A program made the position numbers and the translations under genes. The notes below the pieces were generated by a model. The model saw only the letters and a list, made by a program, of their open reading frames with translations, had not been told where the DNA came from and made no database searches. A stretch of 64,000 nucleotides of DNA from Leptothermofonsia sichuanensis E412 (lineage in GTDB: Bacteria; Cyanobacteriota; Cyanobacteriia; Leptolyngbyales; Leptolyngbyaceae). Of this stretch, positions 47,755 through 58,878 are shown piece after piece (within the stretch, counting starts at the first letter, position 1; every line of letters starts with the position of its first letter). Location: NCBI RefSeq assembly GCF_019891175.1, contig NZ_CP072600.1, positions 3,906,001-3,970,000 on the forward strand, read 5' to 3'.

Positions 47755-48834
47755 CTACAGCGTATTCTTCAACTCACCCACATAAATCCCCAGTGACCGC
47801 GCTGTTTGAACCAGATCACTGTCTGGCTCAACCACCAGCGGACTGAGTGCACAGACCTGTTCAATCGGCACTGCACTGACCGTTCCATTCTGCCAGGCTG
47901 CCATCTGACTGGATTGACCTTTGGCAATGAGGTCAACGGCGGCTTTGCCGAGGGCGGCTGCCATCAGGCGATCCAGTGCTGAGGGAATGCCACCCCGCTG
48001 GATATGACCTAAAACTGAAACTCGGATATCCACTGGATAACTGCTGCAACTGGCGATGCAATCAGCAATATATTGCCCTTTACCGCAGGCTATTTTTTGA
48101 TTGAACAGGTTGATTCCATCTTCCTCGCCTGGATGAATCCCCTCTGCCACAAGAATAATTGCAAATCTGCGATGCCAGCGATCGCGTAGCTCTGCCAGGT
48201 GACGGCACACCTTCTGAATTGAATAGGGAATTTCGGGAATTAAAATGACATCGGCTCCCCCGGCTATGCCTGAATGCAGTGCCAGATGTCCCGCCTCACG
48301 ACCCATCACTTCAACTACCATGACGCGGTCATGGCTCGCCGCCGTGAACGTCAAACGGTTGAGGGCCTCGGTGATCGTATTCACAGCCGTGTCAAAACCG
48401 ATCGCCCGTTCTGTAAGCGCTACATCATTATCAATGGTTTTAGGAATGGCAATGAACTGCCAGTTTCCCTGCAATGCCAGTTGATTCAAAATGGCGATAC
48501 TGCCATCTCCCCCAATACCAATCAGGGCATCCAGATCCAATGCTTGGTAGCTGGCAAGTATTTGGTCAATACAATTCAGTGTGTCCCCTTTGTTGATCGT
48601 GCCCAGGATAGTGCCGCCCATGCTCAGGAGGGGGTCGATCCCCCGCAAGTCGAAACTGTGCATGTGCAGGGGGATCATCTGACGCTCCAGTAGCCCCTGG
48701 GTGGCATAGGGAATACCATACACCTGCCAATCATAGGTAAGAGTGGCATGGCTGACCACTGCGCGAATCACCGCATTCAGTCCGGGGCAGTCGCCACCAC
48801 TAGTTAGGATACCCAATCGTTTTTGTGTTTGCAT
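47755..48834 (-). CDS. pfkA: 6-phosphofructokinase
   Basis: 359 residues. It opens RLGILTSGGDCPGLNAVIRA and has GIGGDGSIAILNQLA, PKTIDNDVALTERAIGFDTA, MGREAGHLALHSGIAGGADV and LGHIQRGGIPSALDR. The GGDGS Gly normally marks ATP-dependent enzymes, while PKTIDND (Lys, not Gly) is typical of PPi-dependent ones, so this is the mixed-substrate-type PfkA subgroup; ATP use is the better guess. It phosphorylates fructose 6-phosphate in glycolysis. It starts 82 bases after the FHA-reductase gene and may belong to that transcript. Confidence 0.94.
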   Translation of the reverse strand: MQTQKRLGILTSGGDCPGLNAVIRAVVSHATLTYDWQVYGIPYATQGLLERQMIPLHMHSFDLRGIDPLLSMGGTILGTINKGDTLNCIDQILASYQALDLDALIGIGGDGSIAILNQLALQGNWQFIAIPKTIDNDVALTERAIGFDTAVNTITEALNRLTFTAASHDRVMVVEVMGREAGHLALHSGIAGGADVILIPEIPYSIQKVCRHLAELRDRWHRRFAIILVAEGIHPGEEDGINLFNQKIACGKGQYIADCIASCSSYPVDIRVSVLGHIQRGGIPSALDRLMAAALGKAAVDLIAKGQSSQMAAWQNGTVSAVPIEQVCALSPLVVEPDSDLVQTARSLGIYVGELKNTL

Positions 48835-48916: not shown

Positions 48917-50455
48917 TCAGGCATCAATCTCCAGTTCATCCACGGGATAAGCCACACATGCCAGGGCATAGCCAGCTTCCTGATCGGTGGTGGTCAGGGC
49001 AGGGGGTGGTGTGTCATACCGTACCTGTCCCCGGCAAACTCGCACCTTACAGGCTCCACAGGCTCCCATTCGACAGGCATTCCGAATTGCAATTCCTTCT
49101 TGCTCCGCGATTTCCAGAATCGAGGCATTATCGTTTACAACGACTGCTTGCCCAGATTTAACAAAGCGAATCAACGGTTCGGCATTGATTGGGGTAGATC
49201 TGGCAGAACCTGACGAATCTAAAGAACGTCCATTCCTGTCAGGGGACGCTGACCTGGCAGATCTGGGGGGAGCGATCGCAGAGGATGAAAGCTTCCCTGA
49301 ATCAGGTTTTGACCGTTTGTAACCAAAGCTTTCTTCCTGATAGTTCTGCATGGGAAGTTGCAGCGATTCCAGAAGCGATCGCACGTTTTCCATAAATCCT
49401 TCTGGTCCACAAACATAGACGACCCGTTCATGTAAATCGGGGGCAACCAGTTGCAAAATTGACTCGGAAATGCGTCCGGTCAGGCCCATCCAGGAACGTC
49501 CTGGGGATTGTTGCGTCAGAGTAACAGCGAGGTGGAAATTGGGCATCTGAGCGGCGATCGCCTCCAGTTCACTGCGAAACACAATATCGTCTACAGTACG
49601 GGCACTGTGGAGAAATACAACATCACAATCAAGCAGCGTATCTTGAACCCAGCGAGTCATCGACATCATGGGGGTAATGCCGCTGCCTGCCGAAATCAGG
49701 AGTAGTTTGGGGGGTAGATGGGGCAGGCAGGTAAAGTGTCCGGCAGGCCCCCCCACTAACTTCAGGCGATCGCCCACCTGGAAGTGATCGTGCAGCCAGT
49801 TGGAAACCAGACCCGGTGGCACATCTGGTTGTGCTGCTGGACTGGCAACTCGTTTAATTGTCAGGCTGAGATGGTAAGGGCGGGTTGGGGATGAAGAAAT
49901 AGAATAGGAACGAATGACGGGTTTGCCATTAATATTCACTTCCAGATTGACAAACTGCCCTGGTAAGTAATGAAACAGGACAGGCGGTTCTGCAATGAAA
50001 TAAAACGTCTTGACATCCAGTGTTTCATTGACAATGCGACAGCAACGACACACTAAATCTTCATGATTCCACAGCGTTTCCGGTTGTGGAAAAGGAGGAG
50101 AAGTCACTAGGTAGGAACTCTCTGAATCAATGGACAACGCCATTACTTCTTCCACATGTAAAAATGTTTCCCCAAGCTGGAGCAAATCTCCAGGTCGGAG
50201 ACGGTGCCGGTCCTGAGCTGCAACCATTTTGCCGTTCAGTAAGGAACCAGAGGTACTGTCGTTATCTACGAAATAGTAGGCATCATCACTGTGAATAATT
50301 CGCCCATGAATACGGCTGACTTCAGGACTGGACAGCACCAGATCACAGGTGGAATTGCGCCCAATCAGCCATTCCTTCTGTCCTGGGTAAGACTGCTCTA
50401 ACTGGTGATGCTGAAATTGCTGTTGCTCAAAATTAACCGACTTCAGGATCAACAT
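48917..50455 (-). CDS. FHA - ferredoxin reductase - [2Fe-2S] ferredoxin fusion protein
   Basis: 512 residues from the ATG at 50455 (MLILKSVNFEQQQ); the frame runs on upstream only through simple-sequence DNA. Domain order: FHA (about residues 20-100, EWLIGRNSTCDLVLSSPEVS and RIHGR), an FAD-binding barrel (VIRSYSISSSPTRPYHLS), an NAD(P)-binding domain (LLISAGSGITPMMSMTRW and VYVCGPEGFMENV), a Pro/Ser linker, and a plant-type ferredoxin domain with RNACRMGACGACKVRVC. It resembles the CDHR-type reductases of oxygenases, but with a phosphothreonine-binding FHA domain in front. Electrons could pass from NAD(P)H to the neighbouring Fe-S membrane protein; the adjacent kinase may control docking. Confidence 0.87.
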   Translation of the reverse strand: MLILKSVNFEQQQFQHHQLEQSYPGQKEWLIGRNSTCDLVLSSPEVSRIHGRIIHSDDAYYFVDNDSTSGSLLNGKMVAAQDRHRLRPGDLLQLGETFLHVEEVMALSIDSESSYLVTSPPFPQPETLWNHEDLVCRCCRIVNETLDVKTFYFIAEPPVLFHYLPGQFVNLEVNINGKPVIRSYSISSSPTRPYHLSLTIKRVASPAAQPDVPPGLVSNWLHDHFQVGDRLKLVGGPAGHFTCLPHLPPKLLLISAGSGITPMMSMTRWVQDTLLDCDVVFLHSARTVDDIVFRSELEAIAAQMPNFHLAVTLTQQSPGRSWMGLTGRISESILQLVAPDLHERVVYVCGPEGFMENVRSLLESLQLPMQNYQEESFGYKRSKPDSGKLSSSAIAPPRSARSASPDRNGRSLDSSGSARSTPINAEPLIRFVKSGQAVVVNDNASILEIAEQEGIAIRNACRMGACGACKVRVCRGQVRYDTPPPALTTTDQEAGYALACVAYPVDELEIDA

Positions 50456-50501
50456 GTGTTTAGTCCTTTTTGTAGCGTAATTGATGACGCAGATGGAGGG
50501 A

Positions 50502-50625
50502 GAAGGGAGAAATGAGAAGTGAGAAGTGAGGAGGGAGAAATGAGAAGGGAGAAGGGAGAAGGGAGAAGTGAAGAGGGAGAAATGAGAAGTGAAGAGGAAG
50601 AAATGAGAAGGGAGGAGTGTTCGCC
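50502..50625. repeat. GA-rich minisatellite
   Basis: Tandem variants of GAGAAGGGAGAAATGAGAAGTG (unit about 7-14 bp) between the Fe-S membrane protein gene and the FHA-reductase gene. It creates a Phe/Ser/Leu-rich spurious frame on the minus strand. Confidence 0.85.
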
Positions 50626-50636
50626 TGTGGCGTTCT

Positions 50637-52334
50637 TTACACTGATGCTGATTTTCTGGATGGTTTGGCAATTGTGGTGGCTAAGGTATCGACCTCATGG
50701 AGTTGAGCAGCCTGCGATGAAGAAGACACCAGTAGTTCTGGTTTTGTGGAGGCGATCGCTTCAATTGTGGCGAAGTGATCAGCATCTTTAAGTTGCAAAT
50801 CTTCTCGTAATTTTCGGCAAAATTCAAAACTGCCTGAGACATCAGTCGTCTTTTGACTCAATAAATCCAGGACAACGTTGGTATAAGTCTGTAATCGTAC
50901 TCGTTGAGAGACTCCGTGCATGACTTTCACCAGCGTGTAAATTTCATCCGGGGTTAACTCGTCTAAAGAACGTCCTTCCAGCAGATCAGAATCAATCGGT
51001 AGTTTTTGCAGTTGTTGGCGCAGACTGTTCGCCATGTTTTCTCGTTCATACTGGGCACGGGTACGTTTCAGTGTGCGATACAGCCAGATGCTACCTACCA
51101 GGACAATTAATGCATTAAAGGTAAGCAGGGGATAGAGCGGCATTCGGTTCAAAGAAGGGCGGGCACCATAGGAGAAAAATGTCCAGAATGAGGCTGCGGT
51201 GAACAGGGTAAAGGTAATGTGCTGCGCCTGTTCGGCGGAGATGGGGCGACCATGCCACACTATGAGTCGTCGGCAGAGTCTTTCTAAGATCAATCCAATC
51301 GTCACTGTAATCGTCATCAAAACTGCAAAGGTGATGAACACAGCGATCGCCTTCGGGATAGGAATCGCATAGCCATAGATATAGAACCCGGTGTCAAATA
51401 CTTTGGTAATCTGGTCATTTTCGCGAGTCCAGGCACCGGAAAAGTAGTAATCCCAGTTCCCCGCATAGAGAAAGTAATAGAGGTAGAAAGCAATTACCAT
51501 TCCCAGATAGCCATATTGGACCAGCCGTCGTCCTGGTTTTTTGAGTTCTGTCCAGTAGGTTTTTTCAGCATCAATGTCAAAACAGGATACCTTACAACCC
51601 ACACAGGCACTGAGTTCCTGACCTGTTCGAGGATCAACCGTGCGACACATGGACTGGGTAATGGCTGGTTTCTGTTCTCGAAAAGTCTGGCTTCCCAGCA
51701 GCGATCGCGGTCCTGTGTAGATCAATTGCACAGGTGCCATGGGACAGAAATAATGACACCAGCTTTTGCCTGCATACAAGTAGCCCACCAGAATAGCACA
51801 GAGAATTGTCCCGATTAGAAAACCACCAAGAGCCATGCGATCGGCATTGATAAATAAAATGCGAATCCCCAAGCCCAGAACAAACAAACCAAACTGAACA
51901 TATAGATGATTTCGTCCCAGCCAGGAGGTTTCAGCGATCGTTACCACTTCTCGACGCCCCTCACCAGTCACCGGATCAATCACTTTTCGTTTCCGCTGAA
52001 TTCCTAATGCCCGCGGAATCTGAGACAGAAAAGATAAGGGACAAATTCGCCGCCAAAACTCATGCCCAAACACCAGCAGAATAAAGATGGCTGCTGGCAC
52101 AATCATTGCCCACCAGATCAAGGCACTCATGGCAAATGGGATTTGTGGCAAACAGTGATTCCGAATTGCAATACATCGATCGGGATCAACACGAAATGGA
52201 CTTGCCAGATTATCGGGTTGCGTCCACATGGGTGTAATCGGGTCATAGAACAATGACGCAATTAACAAAAACCATCCCAGGGTCAACACCCAGCGGACAC
52301 CATGCATTGTTTTCTCAGAAACTTTGTGCAGCAT
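50637..52334 (-). CDS. NapH/NosR-like polytopic 4Fe-4S membrane protein
   Basis: 565 residues, about eight to ten transmembrane helices. Cysteine motifs characteristic of the NapH/NosR/CcoG group are present: RRICPLSFLSQ, SWCHYFCPMAPVQ and SACVGCKVSCFDIDAEKTYW. These bind iron-sulfur clusters on the cytoplasmic face and move electrons across or along the membrane. The C-terminal 150 residues are soluble and helical (DELTPDEIYTLVKVMHGVSQ), not part of NapH, and unrecognised. It sits between the WD40 kinase and the FHA-reductase genes, all on one strand, implying a shared electron-transfer role. Confidence 0.82.
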   Translation of the reverse strand: MLHKVSEKTMHGVRWVLTLGWFLLIASLFYDPITPMWTQPDNLASPFRVDPDRCIAIRNHCLPQIPFAMSALIWWAMIVPAAIFILLVFGHEFWRRICPLSFLSQIPRALGIQRKRKVIDPVTGEGRREVVTIAETSWLGRNHLYVQFGLFVLGLGIRILFINADRMALGGFLIGTILCAILVGYLYAGKSWCHYFCPMAPVQLIYTGPRSLLGSQTFREQKPAITQSMCRTVDPRTGQELSACVGCKVSCFDIDAEKTYWTELKKPGRRLVQYGYLGMVIAFYLYYFLYAGNWDYYFSGAWTRENDQITKVFDTGFYIYGYAIPIPKAIAVFITFAVLMTITVTIGLILERLCRRLIVWHGRPISAEQAQHITFTLFTAASFWTFFSYGARPSLNRMPLYPLLTFNALIVLVGSIWLYRTLKRTRAQYERENMANSLRQQLQKLPIDSDLLEGRSLDELTPDEIYTLVKVMHGVSQRVRLQTYTNVVLDLLSQKTTDVSGSFEFCRKLREDLQLKDADHFATIEAIASTKPELLVSSSSQAAQLHEVDTLATTIAKPSRKSASV

Positions 52335-52439
52335 AAAGGGTACCTCTTGTACGAATGGGTAGGCGGGATGGAAACTCTAACAACTCCCAACTCCACTCCT
52401 CACTCCTCACTCCTCATTCCTCACTCTTAACTTTCCGGC

Positions 52440-52514
52440 GTTGCTGATTTCGGGTATGCATTGAGGGTTGTATGAATTGAAGACTTTCAATTCATACGGC
52501 TATTCAGCACGACC
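52440..52514 (+). repeat. Palindromic repeat family A, copy 4
   Basis: TTGCTGATTTCGGGTATGCA ... GTATGAATTGAAGACTTTC ... CATACGGCTATTCAGCA. About 75 bp nearly identical, in reverse, to 55229-55301. Its right end supplies the last codons and stop of the WD40 kinase gene. Confidence 0.85.
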
Positions 52515-54398
52515 AACTTTCCAGATGCGTAAGCGGCGATCGCCATTTGCACTGATCAGGTAACGGTGATCTGGACTGATGGCGACGCTGGTGCTTCGCT
52601 CCAGTATGCCAGCCTCCTGGGGAACCAGTCGTTCTGCTTTACGAGTCCAGAATCGCAGACTGCCATTAGCGTGAACGGTGGCAAGTGTCTGGTTCTTGAA
52701 GGCGATCGCCACTGGCTGGGCAGATTTTTCAGGGAACACCATTGCCAACTCTTCCCGGTTGAGATCCCACACCAATCCCCCATCTTTACCAAAGCTAAAC
52801 AGCGTATCATTACTGGCAACCTGTAAACCTACGATCGCATCAGTGTGCCCAGCAAAGGTACGATGGATTTGTCCGGTGTGCAGATCCCAGATTTGAATCT
52901 GACGATCGCTGCTGGCACTGATCAGTTTGTCTGGAGTGGCCCCATAGACGGCTACTGAAATTTCCGTATCCGGCAATTTCAGGGTTTGCATCCGGATACC
53001 CGTTTGCAGGTTCCACTGGCGTAGTATTCCACCCTTGCAACCGCTGATTAACCTGTGGGCATCGGGACTGATCGCCAGTGTCGTAACCGGATATCGATGT
53101 CCTCGAAAGATGCGTAAAGGCTTACCCGTAGCGGTATTCCACAAGCGAATTGTCCCGTCTTGACTGCCACTCAACAACCACCTGTTATCGGGACTGATGG
53201 CTAAAGCGGTGATAGGCGTGGCATGTCCATAGAACGATTTCAGCCTGGTGCCGGTTTGCAATGACCAGAGGTGTAAACCGCGATCGCTCCCGGCGGTTAC
53301 AAACAAACGGTTATCCGGTGAAATGATGATTCGATTCACTTCAGGCTGAATACTGACTTCCTGCACCATAGACAAATGCACATCAGACTGACGTAACTGC
53401 TGCCCTAAACGGGTTATTAGCGTTTTAGCCTGGATACTGTAAGTCTTCACATAGGGACCTCCCATGGCTCCCACTGCCAGCACAACCGTTGCCGGAATCA
53501 CGACCCGCCGCGCCACCCGGTGCCATTGAGCAACCGATGCCGATTGCCATGCCCGTCTCACGCTGGACAGCGTCCGCAGATCTTTCAAGACATCGGAGGC
53601 AAGCGAGTAGCGATCGCCCGGCTTCACCCGCACCATGCGATCCAGAATCGCAATCAATTTGGGTTCAACCGTCTGCTCACCCAGATAGCGATGCCAGTCC
53701 ATTTCACCAGAGATTGGATCTGGCTTAAACACTCGTGGATGAACTCCAGTCAACAGATGAATCACCGACATTCCTAAAGCATAAAGATCACTGTTCAACT
53801 GAGTCATTCCCTGTTGTTGCTCACCCGGCATATAACCAGGGGTACCAATGGCTAAGGACAGATCTTCCCCTTCAGAAGGATTAGCCAATGGATACTCAGG
53901 CAGGATATAAGCCGCTCCAAAATCGATCAAAACAACCTTGCCATCCTGTTTTCGTCGAATTATATTGCTCGGTTTAATATCCCGGTGAATCACACGGCGA
54001 GTGTGGAGAAAGTCAAGGACTGGCAGCAGTTCCCGCAGCAGTTTAAGGGCTGTTTTTGCTGTTAAACGCTGTCCCTGAGCCAGCCATCTGCCCAAATTTT
54101 CACCTTCAACATATTCCTGGACCAGGTAAACGTTATCCGGCTCATGACAGTAAGCAAACAACGTTGGAATTTGGGTGTGATGTCGTCCCAAACTCCCCAA
54201 GACAGAAGCTTCCGTTTCAAATAATTTCCAGGCTGTCTCTGATGAAATTGAATGATTAGGTGACAGTCGCAGACATTTGACAACACATAATGGATAGCGG
54301 GGTAAGTATTTATCGCGAGCCAGGTAAGTTTCACTAAACCCACCGGCTCCCAGCTTTTCCAGAATCAGGTAGCGCCCGGTTAACAGTTGCCCAATCAT
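52500..54398 (-). CDS. Ser/Thr protein kinase with WD40 repeats
   Basis: 632 residues. The kinase domain (about 10-275) is complete: GAGGFSETYLAR glycine loop, VVKCLRL lysine, VIHRDIKPSNII catalytic loop, VLIDFGAAY metal-binding DFG and GTPGYMPGEQ. A transmembrane helix near residues 300-320 (RVVIPATVVLAVGAMGGPYV) leads to a C-terminal seven-bladed-type WD40 propeller (for example NRWLLSGSQDGTIRLWNTAT). The final residues GRAE and the stop come from an inserted family A repeat, so the natural C-terminus may have been slightly altered. It heads the gene group with the Fe-S membrane protein and FHA-reductase. Confidence 0.93.
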   Translation of the reverse strand: MIGQLLTGRYLILEKLGAGGFSETYLARDKYLPRYPLCVVKCLRLSPNHSISSETAWKLFETEASVLGSLGRHHTQIPTLFAYCHEPDNVYLVQEYVEGENLGRWLAQGQRLTAKTALKLLRELLPVLDFLHTRRVIHRDIKPSNIIRRKQDGKVVLIDFGAAYILPEYPLANPSEGEDLSLAIGTPGYMPGEQQQGMTQLNSDLYALGMSVIHLLTGVHPRVFKPDPISGEMDWHRYLGEQTVEPKLIAILDRMVRVKPGDRYSLASDVLKDLRTLSSVRRAWQSASVAQWHRVARRVVIPATVVLAVGAMGGPYVKTYSIQAKTLITRLGQQLRQSDVHLSMVQEVSIQPEVNRIIISPDNRLFVTAGSDRGLHLWSLQTGTRLKSFYGHATPITALAISPDNRWLLSGSQDGTIRLWNTATGKPLRIFRGHRYPVTTLAISPDAHRLISGCKGGILRQWNLQTGIRMQTLKLPDTEISVAVYGATPDKLISASSDRQIQIWDLHTGQIHRTFAGHTDAIVGLQVASNDTLFSFGKDGGLVWDLNREELAMVFPEKSAQPVAIAFKNQTLATVHANGSLRFWTRKAERLVPQEAGILERSTSVAISPDHRYLISANGDRRLRIWKVGRAE

Positions 54399-55410: not shown

Positions 55411-57081
55411 ATGGTTCCTACTTTCTGGGATATTCCTGGGATTCATTCCCATCAGGCATTAGAAGTTCTGGAGCGATCGCTCAGCCCCATTTGCATATAC
55501 AGCGATCGCGGGCAGACCATTTATGCCAGTCAAAGCTTTTTAGAGCTATTAAACGCAAGTACTGAGGAAGTGGGGTTCTTTGAATACTTCCCATCAGGAT
55601 CAACCCCATTGGTGATGCTGGATAAATTGTGGAAACGTGCCCTGAAAGGGGAAATGGTTGAATTCTGTTCTAAAACGAGAGACGACTGGACAGGTATCGA
55701 ATGTTCCCTGCAATTTAATCGGGATGCAGGACTGATGGTTTTGAAAGCAAAAGCCGCAAACTCAAATGCAAGCCGACAAACGCTAATTACAGAATATGAG
55801 CAGGCGATCGTCCGCTTGTATGGCTCCACATTGGCCACTGCTTTAATCAATCCAGAGGGAGTGGTTATCCAGTGCAATCAGCGCTTATCCAATCTTTTGG
55901 GTGTGAGCGGTCATGAGAACTTTCATCTGGAAACGTATATTCATCCAGACGATCGGCTGGTGGATACTGATTTGAGACAGCAATTATTGGATGGAACCAT
56001 TGACACTTACACTATTGAAAAACGTCTGGTGGCTAAGAATCAGGAAGTTATCTGGGTGAATGTCAACATCTCACTGATCGATTTGCCAACCTGTGTTGAT
56101 GGTTATTGCAAATATTTTGTGGCTCTGTTTGAAGACATTACCGAGAGCCGCAAAATCTACAACGCGCTGATTAGAACTGAAGAGAAGTGGAAAGCATTCA
56201 TCTTGAAGAGTCCCTACCTGTTTGTGCAAACCAGCCCCAACGGACAGATTGTGTATGCCAGTCCTGCCATTGAGCAGTTGCTGGGCTACCAGGAGGAGGA
56301 ACTGCTGGGGCGACATGTTGCGGAATTGATTCATCCCAATAACTTCAATGAGTTTGAGCTGGCTTTCCAGTTGTGGATTAACCAGGTTCAACCGAAAAAT
56401 CCAGGAATTGAATGCTGGTGGAGAGCAAAATCTGGCAAATGGATATCCTTATATAGCCAGGGACAGTCATTTCCCTCTATACTGGAAATAAATGGAGTGG
56501 TGATTACGGGATACAATATCACTGATCGCAAATATCTGGAAGCCGAACTAAAAGCCAGTCAGGAAAAGCTTCAATCACTCATATTGAATATTCCAGGAGC
56601 GGTGTTTCGGTGTGATACAACCTATACGATGAAATACCTCAGTAATGGCATCAATGCGATAACGGGTTACCCCGCTTCCAGTTTTCTGGATAATCAGATG
56701 CTATCCTATCTCAGTATCATTCATCCAGATGATATATCGATCATCACTAACTCGTTGATTCAATCCGTATTAGATCGCTATCGCCGTCCGATTGAATACC
56801 GGATTATTGATGTTAATGGTTGTATCCACTGGATTTCAGAACATAAGCAAGGTGTATTTGACTCCCAAGGTAACTTGCTGTGGTTAGATGGTGTTTTACT
56901 TGACATTAGCGATCGCAAACGTGCAGAAGCCAAATGCAAGCAAACAGAAGTGGAACTGCATCGCTGTCAGGCTATCAACCGTGCAATGGTTCAAATGATT
57001 CCTGACTTAATTCATTCCAGTTGTTTGAAGTGCATTTCACCAATGGTTTCCAGTGTTAATGAAACGTTCCCTGGTTACTAA
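55411..57081 (+). CDS. Multi-PAS sensor protein lacking an output domain, probably truncated
   Basis: 556 residues from an ATG preceded by AGGAAAG. Four PAS-type domains are seen: about 20-110, 145-260 (HPDDRLVDTDL, ending in FVALFEDITESRK), 265-385 (SPAIEQLLGYQEEELLGRH) and 390-505 (YHLSNGINAITGY-like, HPDDIS, LLDISDRKRAEAK). The next domain begins at AINRAMVQMIPDLI but runs into unrelated residues (HSSCLKCISPM) and stops. Its final Gly-Tyr-stop codons lie in a GTTACTAAG hairpin repeat. A histidine kinase or GGDEF output would be expected here; I infer that the 3' end was lost. Confidence 0.8.
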   Translation: MVPTFWDIPGIHSHQALEVLERSLSPICIYSDRGQTIYASQSFLELLNASTEEVGFFEYFPSGSTPLVMLDKLWKRALKGEMVEFCSKTRDDWTGIECSLQFNRDAGLMVLKAKAANSNASRQTLITEYEQAIVRLYGSTLATALINPEGVVIQCNQRLSNLLGVSGHENFHLETYIHPDDRLVDTDLRQQLLDGTIDTYTIEKRLVAKNQEVIWVNVNISLIDLPTCVDGYCKYFVALFEDITESRKIYNALIRTEEKWKAFILKSPYLFVQTSPNGQIVYASPAIEQLLGYQEEELLGRHVAELIHPNNFNEFELAFQLWINQVQPKNPGIECWWRAKSGKWISLYSQGQSFPSILEINGVVITGYNITDRKYLEAELKASQEKLQSLILNIPGAVFRCDTTYTMKYLSNGINAITGYPASSFLDNQMLSYLSIIHPDDISIITNSLIQSVLDRYRRPIEYRIIDVNGCIHWISEHKQGVFDSQGNLLWLDGVLLDISDRKRAEAKCKQTEVELHRCQAINRAMVQMIPDLIHSSCLKCISPMVSSVNETFPGY

Positions 57082-57477: not shown

Positions 57478-58878
57478 ATGAGTCGTGAAGTTCCCGCCCT
57501 GGGTGTCGATGAGGGGCTGGTTCGAGCCACCCTTCAACGAAACTCTCAGCGAAATACTGTGTCAGTGAGTGAACCACTTCCTCAGAGTCAGCCTTCTGAA
57601 ACAGCGGATGCTCTGGCAAGCGAAGCAGACGGTCATGCTGATGTCTTTGAGCAAGCCGTTCGACTTCATGCCAGGACCAAAGTAGCATTGATTCGGAAAT
57701 TGCTGACCCAGCTTGACACAAATCAGATTCAGGCTGTTTTAGAATATGGGCTGCGAGAAATTGGCGATCGCCACCGACGCGGCGTATCCTCAACTTCAGC
57801 AAACCACCATACGCGCCTGTTGCTCAAAAAGGATTACAGCTATCAAGAGCGGGGACTGGATCAGCCAACCCAGTACTATGTGTATCTCAGGCGACGTAAA
57901 CCCAAGCTGGATCGATACATTGGAGCTTTATTTTATATTCCTGAAGGGTGTACACTGTCCTATTTTCTGGATGCAGAGGGGCGAATCATTTTCAACTCCC
58001 CCCACAATGTTTTTCAGTTGCGAGATTACTCAAATCCTGCCATTGTTCAGGTTGTCCGGCTGATTTGCCTGGAGCCGCCCCCACCTGACTACACTTTCAC
58101 AAAACAGCAGGAGGATGTTCCAGAAATCCGCTTACATCTGGAATACCTTGATCCCTTAACTCATCAGTCCATTGCCAGACAAGCCTATTTTTTTCCTGCC
58201 TGTATGCACGAAGGCGGTAGACTTGATCGCTATCGCTGGGAAGTTTCAACCGTCACACCGACACTGGAACCATCTGAACCATTGCAGCATCCAGTAAAGC
58301 CTCCAGTTCAACCGCTGGTTTCTAATCCTCAACCATTTGAGAACGAGTCTGCTGTCCTGGATGGGATGAGTGATACAGATTACTCACCGCTGATTTCCCC
58401 GATCAAGCCAGAGCAGCCATTGAATCGCTCAGAACAAACGGCTTCATCACCAATCCGTCAGGTGCTGGAATTGCCTGCCAAACCCCTGACCTTCTGCCTG
58501 TGCCGTCGTGAGGATGCCGATACAATTTTGAAGCGGATGCGCCTGTGGGTTTCCTGGAGCGAAAAGGCAATGCCCCAATCTCGCTGGGAAATTACTCAGA
58601 GCGGCGAAGTCTATACCTTAATCAATGCCCATTTCAAACGGCAAATTCTCAAGTTTTCCCGCGATCGCGCCTCCATTACCCTGGAAAACTCACTCCCTGT
58701 TCTGGTGAAATGGTTTCATGACCTCAGCCTGGCAGTTTCGCAAGCACAAAACCAGCGGCAATATAGCGCAGCCCAACTAAAACTGGCCCATAGCCTGTTT
58801 GTAGACATGAGCCTGCCCCAGAAGGATCCGCTGGTAGTACTGCAAAAGCTATTTGGAGTCGAGTTTTCTAAGCATTAG
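57478..58878 (+). CDS. Hypothetical protein
   Basis: 466 residues, cytoplasmic by composition. An N-terminal helical part (about 60-100, RTKVALIRKLLTQLDTNQIQ) is followed by a beta-rich region around 110-250 (YYVYLRRRKPKLDRYIGALF and TLSYFLDAEGRIIFNS), a Pro/Ser/Gln linker (about 260-330) and a C-terminal alpha/beta part (WEITQSGEVYTLINAHFKRQ). I do not recognise the family. A tRNA-Ser gene follows after 58 bases. The gene looks genuine from codon use and domain-like composition. Confidence 0.7.
   Translation: MSREVPALGVDEGLVRATLQRNSQRNTVSVSEPLPQSQPSETADALASEADGHADVFEQAVRLHARTKVALIRKLLTQLDTNQIQAVLEYGLREIGDRHRRGVSSTSANHHTRLLLKKDYSYQERGLDQPTQYYVYLRRRKPKLDRYIGALFYIPEGCTLSYFLDAEGRIIFNSPHNVFQLRDYSNPAIVQVVRLICLEPPPPDYTFTKQQEDVPEIRLHLEYLDPLTHQSIARQAYFFPACMHEGGRLDRYRWEVSTVTPTLEPSEPLQHPVKPPVQPLVSNPQPFENESAVLDGMSDTDYSPLISPIKPEQPLNRSEQTASSPIRQVLELPAKPLTFCLCRREDADTILKRMRLWVSWSEKAMPQSRWEITQSGEVYTLINAHFKRQILKFSRDRASITLENSLPVLVKWFHDLSLAVSQAQNQRQYSAAQLKLAHSLFVDMSLPQKDPLVVLQKLFGVEFSKH

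Follow-up and report, generated by a model that had tools for sequence, protein, structure and literature searches.

Does threonine phosphorylation govern the passage of electrons from NAD(P)H into a cyanobacterial membrane, and if so, where would those electrons end? This question is raised by three consecutive genes in a 64,000-nt stretch of Leptothermofonsia sichuanensis E412 DNA (NZ_CP072600.1, positions 3,906,001 to 3,970,000; hereafter, the window), which encode a WD40 Ser/Thr protein kinase, a polytopic membrane protein that we call NapH-like, and a reductase carrying an FHA domain. The initial annotation of this DNA had described three adjacent genes on one strand, and all three open reading frames (ORFs) are indeed present on the minus strand (Table 1).

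We give a probability of about 0.5 to the reading that these genes encode a donor-acceptor module gated by phosphorylation, whose likeliest end is an outward acceptor. Judging from the domains, electrons from NAD(P)H would pass through FAD to the [2Fe-2S] domain of the soluble reductase; from there they would go to a cytoplasmic Fe-S site of the NapH-like protein, a step supported by a natural NapH-[2Fe-2S] fusion. The membrane-anchored kinase may phosphorylate T550, T554, or both in the tail of the NapH-like protein. The reductase would bind the phosphothreonine through its FHA domain, and phosphorylation would thus recruit the electron donor to its membrane acceptor. Onward transfer would most likely be to an extracytoplasmic acceptor, with a conserved C54/C61 hairpin lying on the outer face. 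In other lineages, the reductase and the NapH-like protein appear to have been kept as a pair while their control was swapped.

Conservation of the gene pair and the trio

Among the 42 genomes analyzed from the family of the window organism, the NapH-like protein was found in 32, the reductase in ~23, and a close homologue of the kinase in ~20, and their locations coincide. Neighborhood clustering returned the order kinase, NapH-like gene, and reductase on one strand, with divergent PAS and uncharacterized genes beyond. Since this gene order recurs both within the family, in ~20 genomes, and beyond it, in named genomes from other families, the arrangement is not due to chance, and the trio forms a conserved, operon-like block. 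In a sample of 292 genomes covering the phylum, 36 hold a NapH-like protein, including all nine genomes with a close reductase (E < 1e-90), one of which (G278) retains only a fragment of the NapH-like gene. (Genomes and loci are given by our G and L numbers.) Moreover, the NapH-like gene is followed by the reductase gene, in the same order and on the same strand, at 51 of 51 non-redundant loci that hold both, mostly within 300 bases.

In a tree of 96 NapH-like cores, the trio falls into a single clade with 26 members (SH-aLRT [Shimodaira-Hasegawa-like approximate likelihood ratio test] support, 100). The kinase gene lies directly upstream of the NapH-like gene in 24 of these 26 members; the other two (L055 and L101) lie at contig ends, where the contig stops before the kinase position. 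Outside the trio clade, the pair is found with other regulators, i.e., cyclic nucleotide monophosphate (cNMP)-binding, EF-hand, or extra FHA domains, or other kinases. The conserved cyanobacterial unit is the NapH-reductase pair, and the WD40 kinase is a clade-specific addition; because the kinase is confined to one clade of the tree, the pair looks like the older unit, to which the kinase was added in one lineage. The grouping of all three genes proposed by the initial annotation therefore survived the survey within one clade, where the genes are regular neighbors, and did not extend to the kinase elsewhere.

These distributions also bear on the view that the pair is a conserved redox unit and the kinase a mere genomic neighbor with a different regulatory target, for example the divergent PAS gene. 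The pair mostly occurs without this kinase outside the one clade, and cyanobacterial genomes contain many kinase/WD40 candidates. Within the clade, however, the association is invariant and always on one strand; in L085-L087, the kinase and NapH-like genes almost overlap, with gaps of -4 to 2 bases. Other lineages (L102-L105, L112, L119, and L124) have different kinase genes close to the pair. We consider a bystander kinase very unlikely.

Kinase, FHA domain, and tail motif

The components of a kinase-FHA phospho-switch are all recognizable at the locus. First, an active-looking Ser/Thr kinase (Pkinase, E = 3e-33; WD40, E = 1e-40) is genetically linked to an FHA protein. It keeps the catalytic features K41, HRDIKPSN, and DFG and has a single predicted transmembrane (TM) helix near residues 295-317; a hydrophobic segment between the kinase and WD40 parts is present in 20 of 28 trio-type kinases. 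Second, the FHA domain of the window reductase keeps the phosphothreonine contacts (G32 and R33, S47 and R48, and H50), in agreement with its earlier description as a phosphothreonine reader. The same contacts (GR, S, and H) are intact in nearly all NapH-linked reductases, with exceptions at one position in L078 and L087; the reductase of L077, where the NapH-like protein is a fragment, has no FHA domain at all. The Arg and Ser contacts are lost in the reductases of L080, L082, and L114, all of which are without a NapH neighbor.

Third, the putative partner offers conserved candidate acceptor threonines. The initial annotation had guessed that the NapH-like tail is the phosphorylation target, and in this otherwise variable, disordered tail, the trio clade conserves T550 (23/26), T554 (22/26), I/V/L555 (26/26), and K/R557 (24/26). 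More generally, the motif T[IVL]x[RK] occurs in the disordered tails of 31 of 39 short NapH-like proteins paired with an FHA reductase and in none of eight unpaired ones; the paired short proteins contain 48 motifs, compared with 5.6 expected from shuffling of each tail. In a separate clade (L102, L103, L104, and L105), the tails hold two or three copies (up to three in L102 and L104), and kinase genes are nearby. The motif is a candidate: it has the form expected of a phosphothreonine docking site, which is not proof of phosphorylation. From the motif and the FHA contacts, we infer threonine phosphorylation and FHA docking.

Several observations weigh against this reading. The Asn usual in the STNG turn of FHA domains is Ser in the window (STSG). 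The trio clade is one lineage, so that its motif counts are not independent and are inflated by related sequences; counted by lineage, according to our reading of the tree, the motif is present in ~5 of 9 paired and 0 of 6 unpaired lineages. The strict motif is absent from trio-clade members L073, L085, L086, and L087, and Thr-rich tails could have another role. The FHA domain might instead dock the reductase on the autophosphorylated kinase or another phosphoprotein, the tail motif then being a basic/hydrophobic segment close to the membrane or the Fe-S site and no phosphosite. Binding to autophosphorylated kinases is an established capacity of FHA domains, part of the motif is basic, and certain paired proteins have basic tails only (e.g., L117 and L122). 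Against such docking, the Thr itself is conserved (22-23/26) within a disordered tail, and the motif also appears in lineages without an adjacent orthologous kinase and is absent from unpaired short proteins; we regard this alternative as distinctly unlikely and retain the tail as the preferred docking site.

The reductase as the proposed electron donor

Pfam assigned FHA (2e-16), FAD_binding_6 (1e-11), NAD_binding_1 (2e-19), and Fer2 (1e-15) domains to the reductase, which has a flavin motif (RSYSISS), a nucleotide motif (GSGITPM), and a plant-type cluster formed by C461, C466, C469, and C500. Its best curated model is the glycine betaine monooxygenase reductase GbcB (NF058606), an identity that we rejected since the score of 333 bits is under the cut-off of 500. 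This match, together with a Rieske protein that adjoins the pair in L074, would fit an FHA-reductase serving a soluble oxygenase, like GbcB or BenC, with the membrane neighbor being incidental. Yet the Rieske neighbor was seen at one locus only, linkage to NapH is near-universal, and a NapH-ferredoxin fusion exists, making an oxygenase partner extremely improbable. An FHA-reductase without a NapH neighbor was also observed outside cyanobacteria, in Crenothrix (L126:5081-9098), where two further ferredoxin reductases and a PNPOx-globin protein are encoded beside it.

The fusion, at L197:7857-9725 (genome G121), joins a NapH-like protein to a [2Fe-2S] domain, with no such reductase adjoining; its ferredoxin half is up to 53% identical to the ferredoxin domains of the reductases. 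Because this natural fusion exists, electron exchange between the reductase and the NapH-like protein, as envisaged in the initial annotation, is supported at the level of sequence. The fusion protein, which has a DoxX gene upstream, is without the C54/C61 loop; some members may therefore be able to do without this cysteine pair.

The NapH-like membrane protein

The AlphaFold2 model of the window protein (mean predicted local distance difference test [pLDDT] score, 74.9) contains eight predicted TM helices, followed by a conserved helical domain (~440-535) and a disordered tail (537-565; pLDDT < 50). Seven cytoplasmic cysteines are invariant (C98, C193, C197, C230, C244, C247, and C251), and three histidines (H11, H91, and H372) are conserved. 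According to the model and the positive-inside charges of the loops, the N terminus, all seven Fe-S-type cysteines, and the tail are cytoplasmic, while C54 and C61 are outside; alignment A3 has the latter in 27 of its 28 rows, and an alignment of 66 rows has them in 98-100%.

Support for "NapH-like" as a family label is weak. The Fer4_5 match of the window protein (E = 0.0015; 18.9 bits) is below the Pfam cut-off of 22 bits, which relatives in L078 (24.3), L093 (22.7), and L079 (39.6) exceed. In place of the two CX3CP motifs and two ferredoxin-type [4Fe-4S] motifs of NapH, the protein has one CX3CP (C193-C197), one reduced to C98-P, and one CX13CX2CX3C. No NapA or NapG genes were recognized around the trio or the loci examined, and no nap, nos, or cco genes beside the NapH-like gene. 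Neither profile search nor fold search returned a solved homologue of the core: the model had no PDB match at E ≤ 0.001, and among the 60 matches listed for the long forms in a PDB profile search, only the cNMP-binding region was matched.

Many relatives outside the trio are longer, with a HEAT-like region and a cNMP-binding domain, sometimes with FHA, or with EF-hands. The EF-hands lie at the end of the NapH-like proteins in L093, L177, L178, L179, L181, and L196 and suggest Ca2+ control. Another set of long forms is directly preceded by nrtABCD-type transporter genes in L176, L186, L187, and L188 (the cNMP-binding domain is a separate ORF in L188 and part of the NapH-like protein in the other three), and functions within the family may therefore differ.

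These properties are relevant to an alternative that keeps the pair and the phospho-docking but sends electrons into the quinone pool, making the module a regulated NAD(P)H:plastoquinone reductase or, in reverse, a quinol-driven [2Fe-2S] reductase. NapH is linked to quinol oxidation, and the Fer4_5 label points to NapH-type quinol proteins; all Fe-S cysteines are cytoplasmic, no outer redox cofactor is visible, and the long relatives noted above follow genes of the nitrate transporter type. However, the nearly invariant C54/C61 would be left unexplained, as would the recurrent extracytoplasmic neighbors described below, and NapH membership itself is weak (Fer4_5 under the cut-off, one CX3CP degenerate). 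We view a quinone end as possible, though somewhat unlikely, and continue to favor an outward acceptor.

Neighboring genes and possible output

In the related loci L108/L109, the gene directly upstream, at a distance of 122 bases, encodes a vanadium bromoperoxidase (match to 1qhb, E = 3e-115); a vanadium chloroperoxidase (VCPO) lies 119 bases downstream in L117 and ~1 kb downstream in L113/L125, there with a signal-peptide-like start. A lipoprotein-like Cu/Zn superoxide dismutase (SOD), the only copy found in each genome, is encoded downstream in L106, L112, L119, and L124. In addition, type I secretion genes and RTX-CHRD proteins occur near several trio members. These vanadium haloperoxidase (VHPO), SOD, and RTX-CHRD neighbors possibly point, through guilt by association, to an extracytoplasmic and perhaps reactive-oxygen output. 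Because VHPO, Cu/Zn SOD, and RTX-type proteins recur beside related loci, O2 is the leading candidate acceptor and might be converted to superoxide and peroxide, a weaker suggestion than the preceding steps.

On the other side of the balance, the VHPO and SOD neighbors all accompany pairs that are not part of the trio clade; these come from about four lineages, with roughly four independent acquisitions by our count. Cu/Zn SOD was not found in the window genome, nor was a VCPO-type haloperoxidase detected there with a VCPO model that gave nothing in control genomes either. Close to the outer face, no conserved heme ligand or cofactor can be seen, which leaves the outward electron path unexplained. 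The direction of electron flow and the outward acceptor are what we infer, and the more specific proposal of a NOX-like (NADPH oxidase-like) logic built from NOX-unrelated parts, in which a recruitable FAD/[2Fe-2S] reductase and an Fe-S membrane protein would deliver electrons from NAD(P)H to O2 and yield extracellular superoxide/H2O2, is tentative and rather unlikely.

RTX/CHRD proteins adjoin the trio in L085, L086, L087, L095, L098, and L101; in L085-L087, two of these proteins are encoded directly upstream of the kinase. Some of the loci also have genes for HlyD and an ABC exporter close by. CHRD as a hidden SOD was rejected: the profile comparison was negative, no convincing PDB match was obtained, and the AlphaFold model (pLDDT, 43) was unusable.

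Nucleotide cyclases with a Tll0287 domain are encoded near NapH-HEAT-FHA-cNMP proteins in L074 (4946-6418), L088 (5177-6706), L089, and L209. Heme c and nitric oxide (NO) binding has been reported for the Tll0287-type domain family in a preprint (PMC12889525). At these loci, a circuit from NO or redox state through a cyclic nucleotide to electron transfer is possible.

Organization of the window locus

The start of the reductase gene was placed at ATG 50455 by an alignment of homologue starts, correcting a longer ORF from TTG 50671 whose frame would translate the heptamer-repeat array. A second heptamer-type tandem repeat is located at 52394-52426; the gaps between the three genes are filled with such repeats. 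No terminator-like site was found in the NapH-reductase gap. Most trio loci have a PAS homologue oriented divergently from the kinase, and the gene for the 466-amino-acid (aa) protein, which has no Pfam or NCBIfam match, is a conserved neighbor in ~15 loci. PfkA (47755-48834) lies 82 bases from the reductase gene, as the initial annotation had it; the suggested link to carbon flux was rejected since no phosphofructokinase gene adjoins any other trio locus examined.

Table 1. Features of the locus in window coordinates
Feature	Position	Strand	Length or content	Basis
Ser/Thr protein kinase, C-terminal WD40 propeller	52500..54398	(-)	632 aa	Pfam Pkinase and WD40
NapH-like polytopic iron-sulfur membrane protein	50637..52334	(-)	565 aa	AlphaFold2 model, alignment conservation
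Candidate phosphothreonine docking motif in NapH-like C-terminal tail	50637..50687	(-)	T550-L-A-T-T554-I-A-K	Clade conservation
FHA - FAD - NAD(P) - [2Fe-2S] reductase	48917..50455	(-)	512 aa	Pfam, alignment A1 invariant columns, FHA residue table
NapH-reductase gap	50456..50636		181 bases, largely heptamer-type tandem repeat (50497-50617)	Tandem Repeats Finder
PAS-repeat protein, divergent to trio	55411..57081	(+)	No output domain	Pfam PAS
Uncharacterized protein 3' of PAS gene	57478..58878	(+)	466 aa	Neighborhood cluster c4

Relation to known systems and implications

In outline, the module resembles a gated NADPH oxidase. NOX2 (phosphorylation-gated assembly) and RBOH/NOX5 (EF-hand gated) follow the same logic of a cytosolic NAD(P)H/FAD donor and a polytopic membrane acceptor, controlled by phosphorylation-driven assembly or an EF-hand, and the output may likewise be to the outside. 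Yet the module is not a member of the NOX family: no homology was found, and the three proteins gave no Pfam match, and the fold search no match, to the bis-heme TM domain of NOX/ferric reductases fused to FAD/NAD domains. The module is without a ferric-reductase/cytochrome b558 domain, its membrane part has Fe-S-type cysteine motifs, a separate soluble protein carries the flavin and NAD domains together with a [2Fe-2S] domain, and O2 is only a putative acceptor.

By the tests for NapH and GbcB, the module is neither. The membrane protein shares with NapH, NosR, and CcoG a polytopic structure, cytoplasmic CX3CP-type and CX2CX3C cysteine motifs, and a weak Fer4_5 match, but has one complete CX3CP and one further cluster-like motif, an extracytoplasmic cysteine pair, a conserved helical tail domain, and, elsewhere in the family, regulatory C-terminal modules. 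The reductase has the FAD-NAD-[2Fe-2S] order of GbcB (its best curated match), BenC, PaaE, and Hcr, but differs from GbcB-type reductases in its N-terminal FHA domain and in having a membrane protein instead of a soluble oxygenase as its partner. The parts of the switch (Ser/Thr kinase, short Thr motif, and FHA reader) are those of PknG/PknB with GarA/OdhI and of PpkA-Fha in type VI secretion; in GarA/OdhI, motif and FHA domain are within one protein that controls tricarboxylic acid cycle enzymes, whereas here they are on two putative redox partners. Both kinase-FHA switches and membrane electron transfer driven by NAD(P)H are already known; the literature searched, which covers work on cyanobacterial kinase-FHA systems only in part, gave no description of the two joined on an Fe-S membrane protein.

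Extracellular superoxide is made by cyanobacteria, and a flavoenzyme blocker inhibits its production in most phytoplankton tested, for which NADPH oxidases and glutathione reductase have been named as candidates (PMC12684733, PMC6247811). If the NOX-like proposal were true, extracellular superoxide/H2O2 would serve haloperoxidases, matrix chemistry, or photoprotection, and the gates of a reactive-oxygen module (Thr phosphorylation-FHA, cNMP, and Ca2+) would be interchangeable. As a flavoenzyme route to cyanobacterial extracellular superoxide, the module is a concrete candidate that can be tested, and its neighbors suggest that it could supply cyanobacterial haloperoxidases with peroxide. It is also a clear example of a single redox core under swapped signaling modules.

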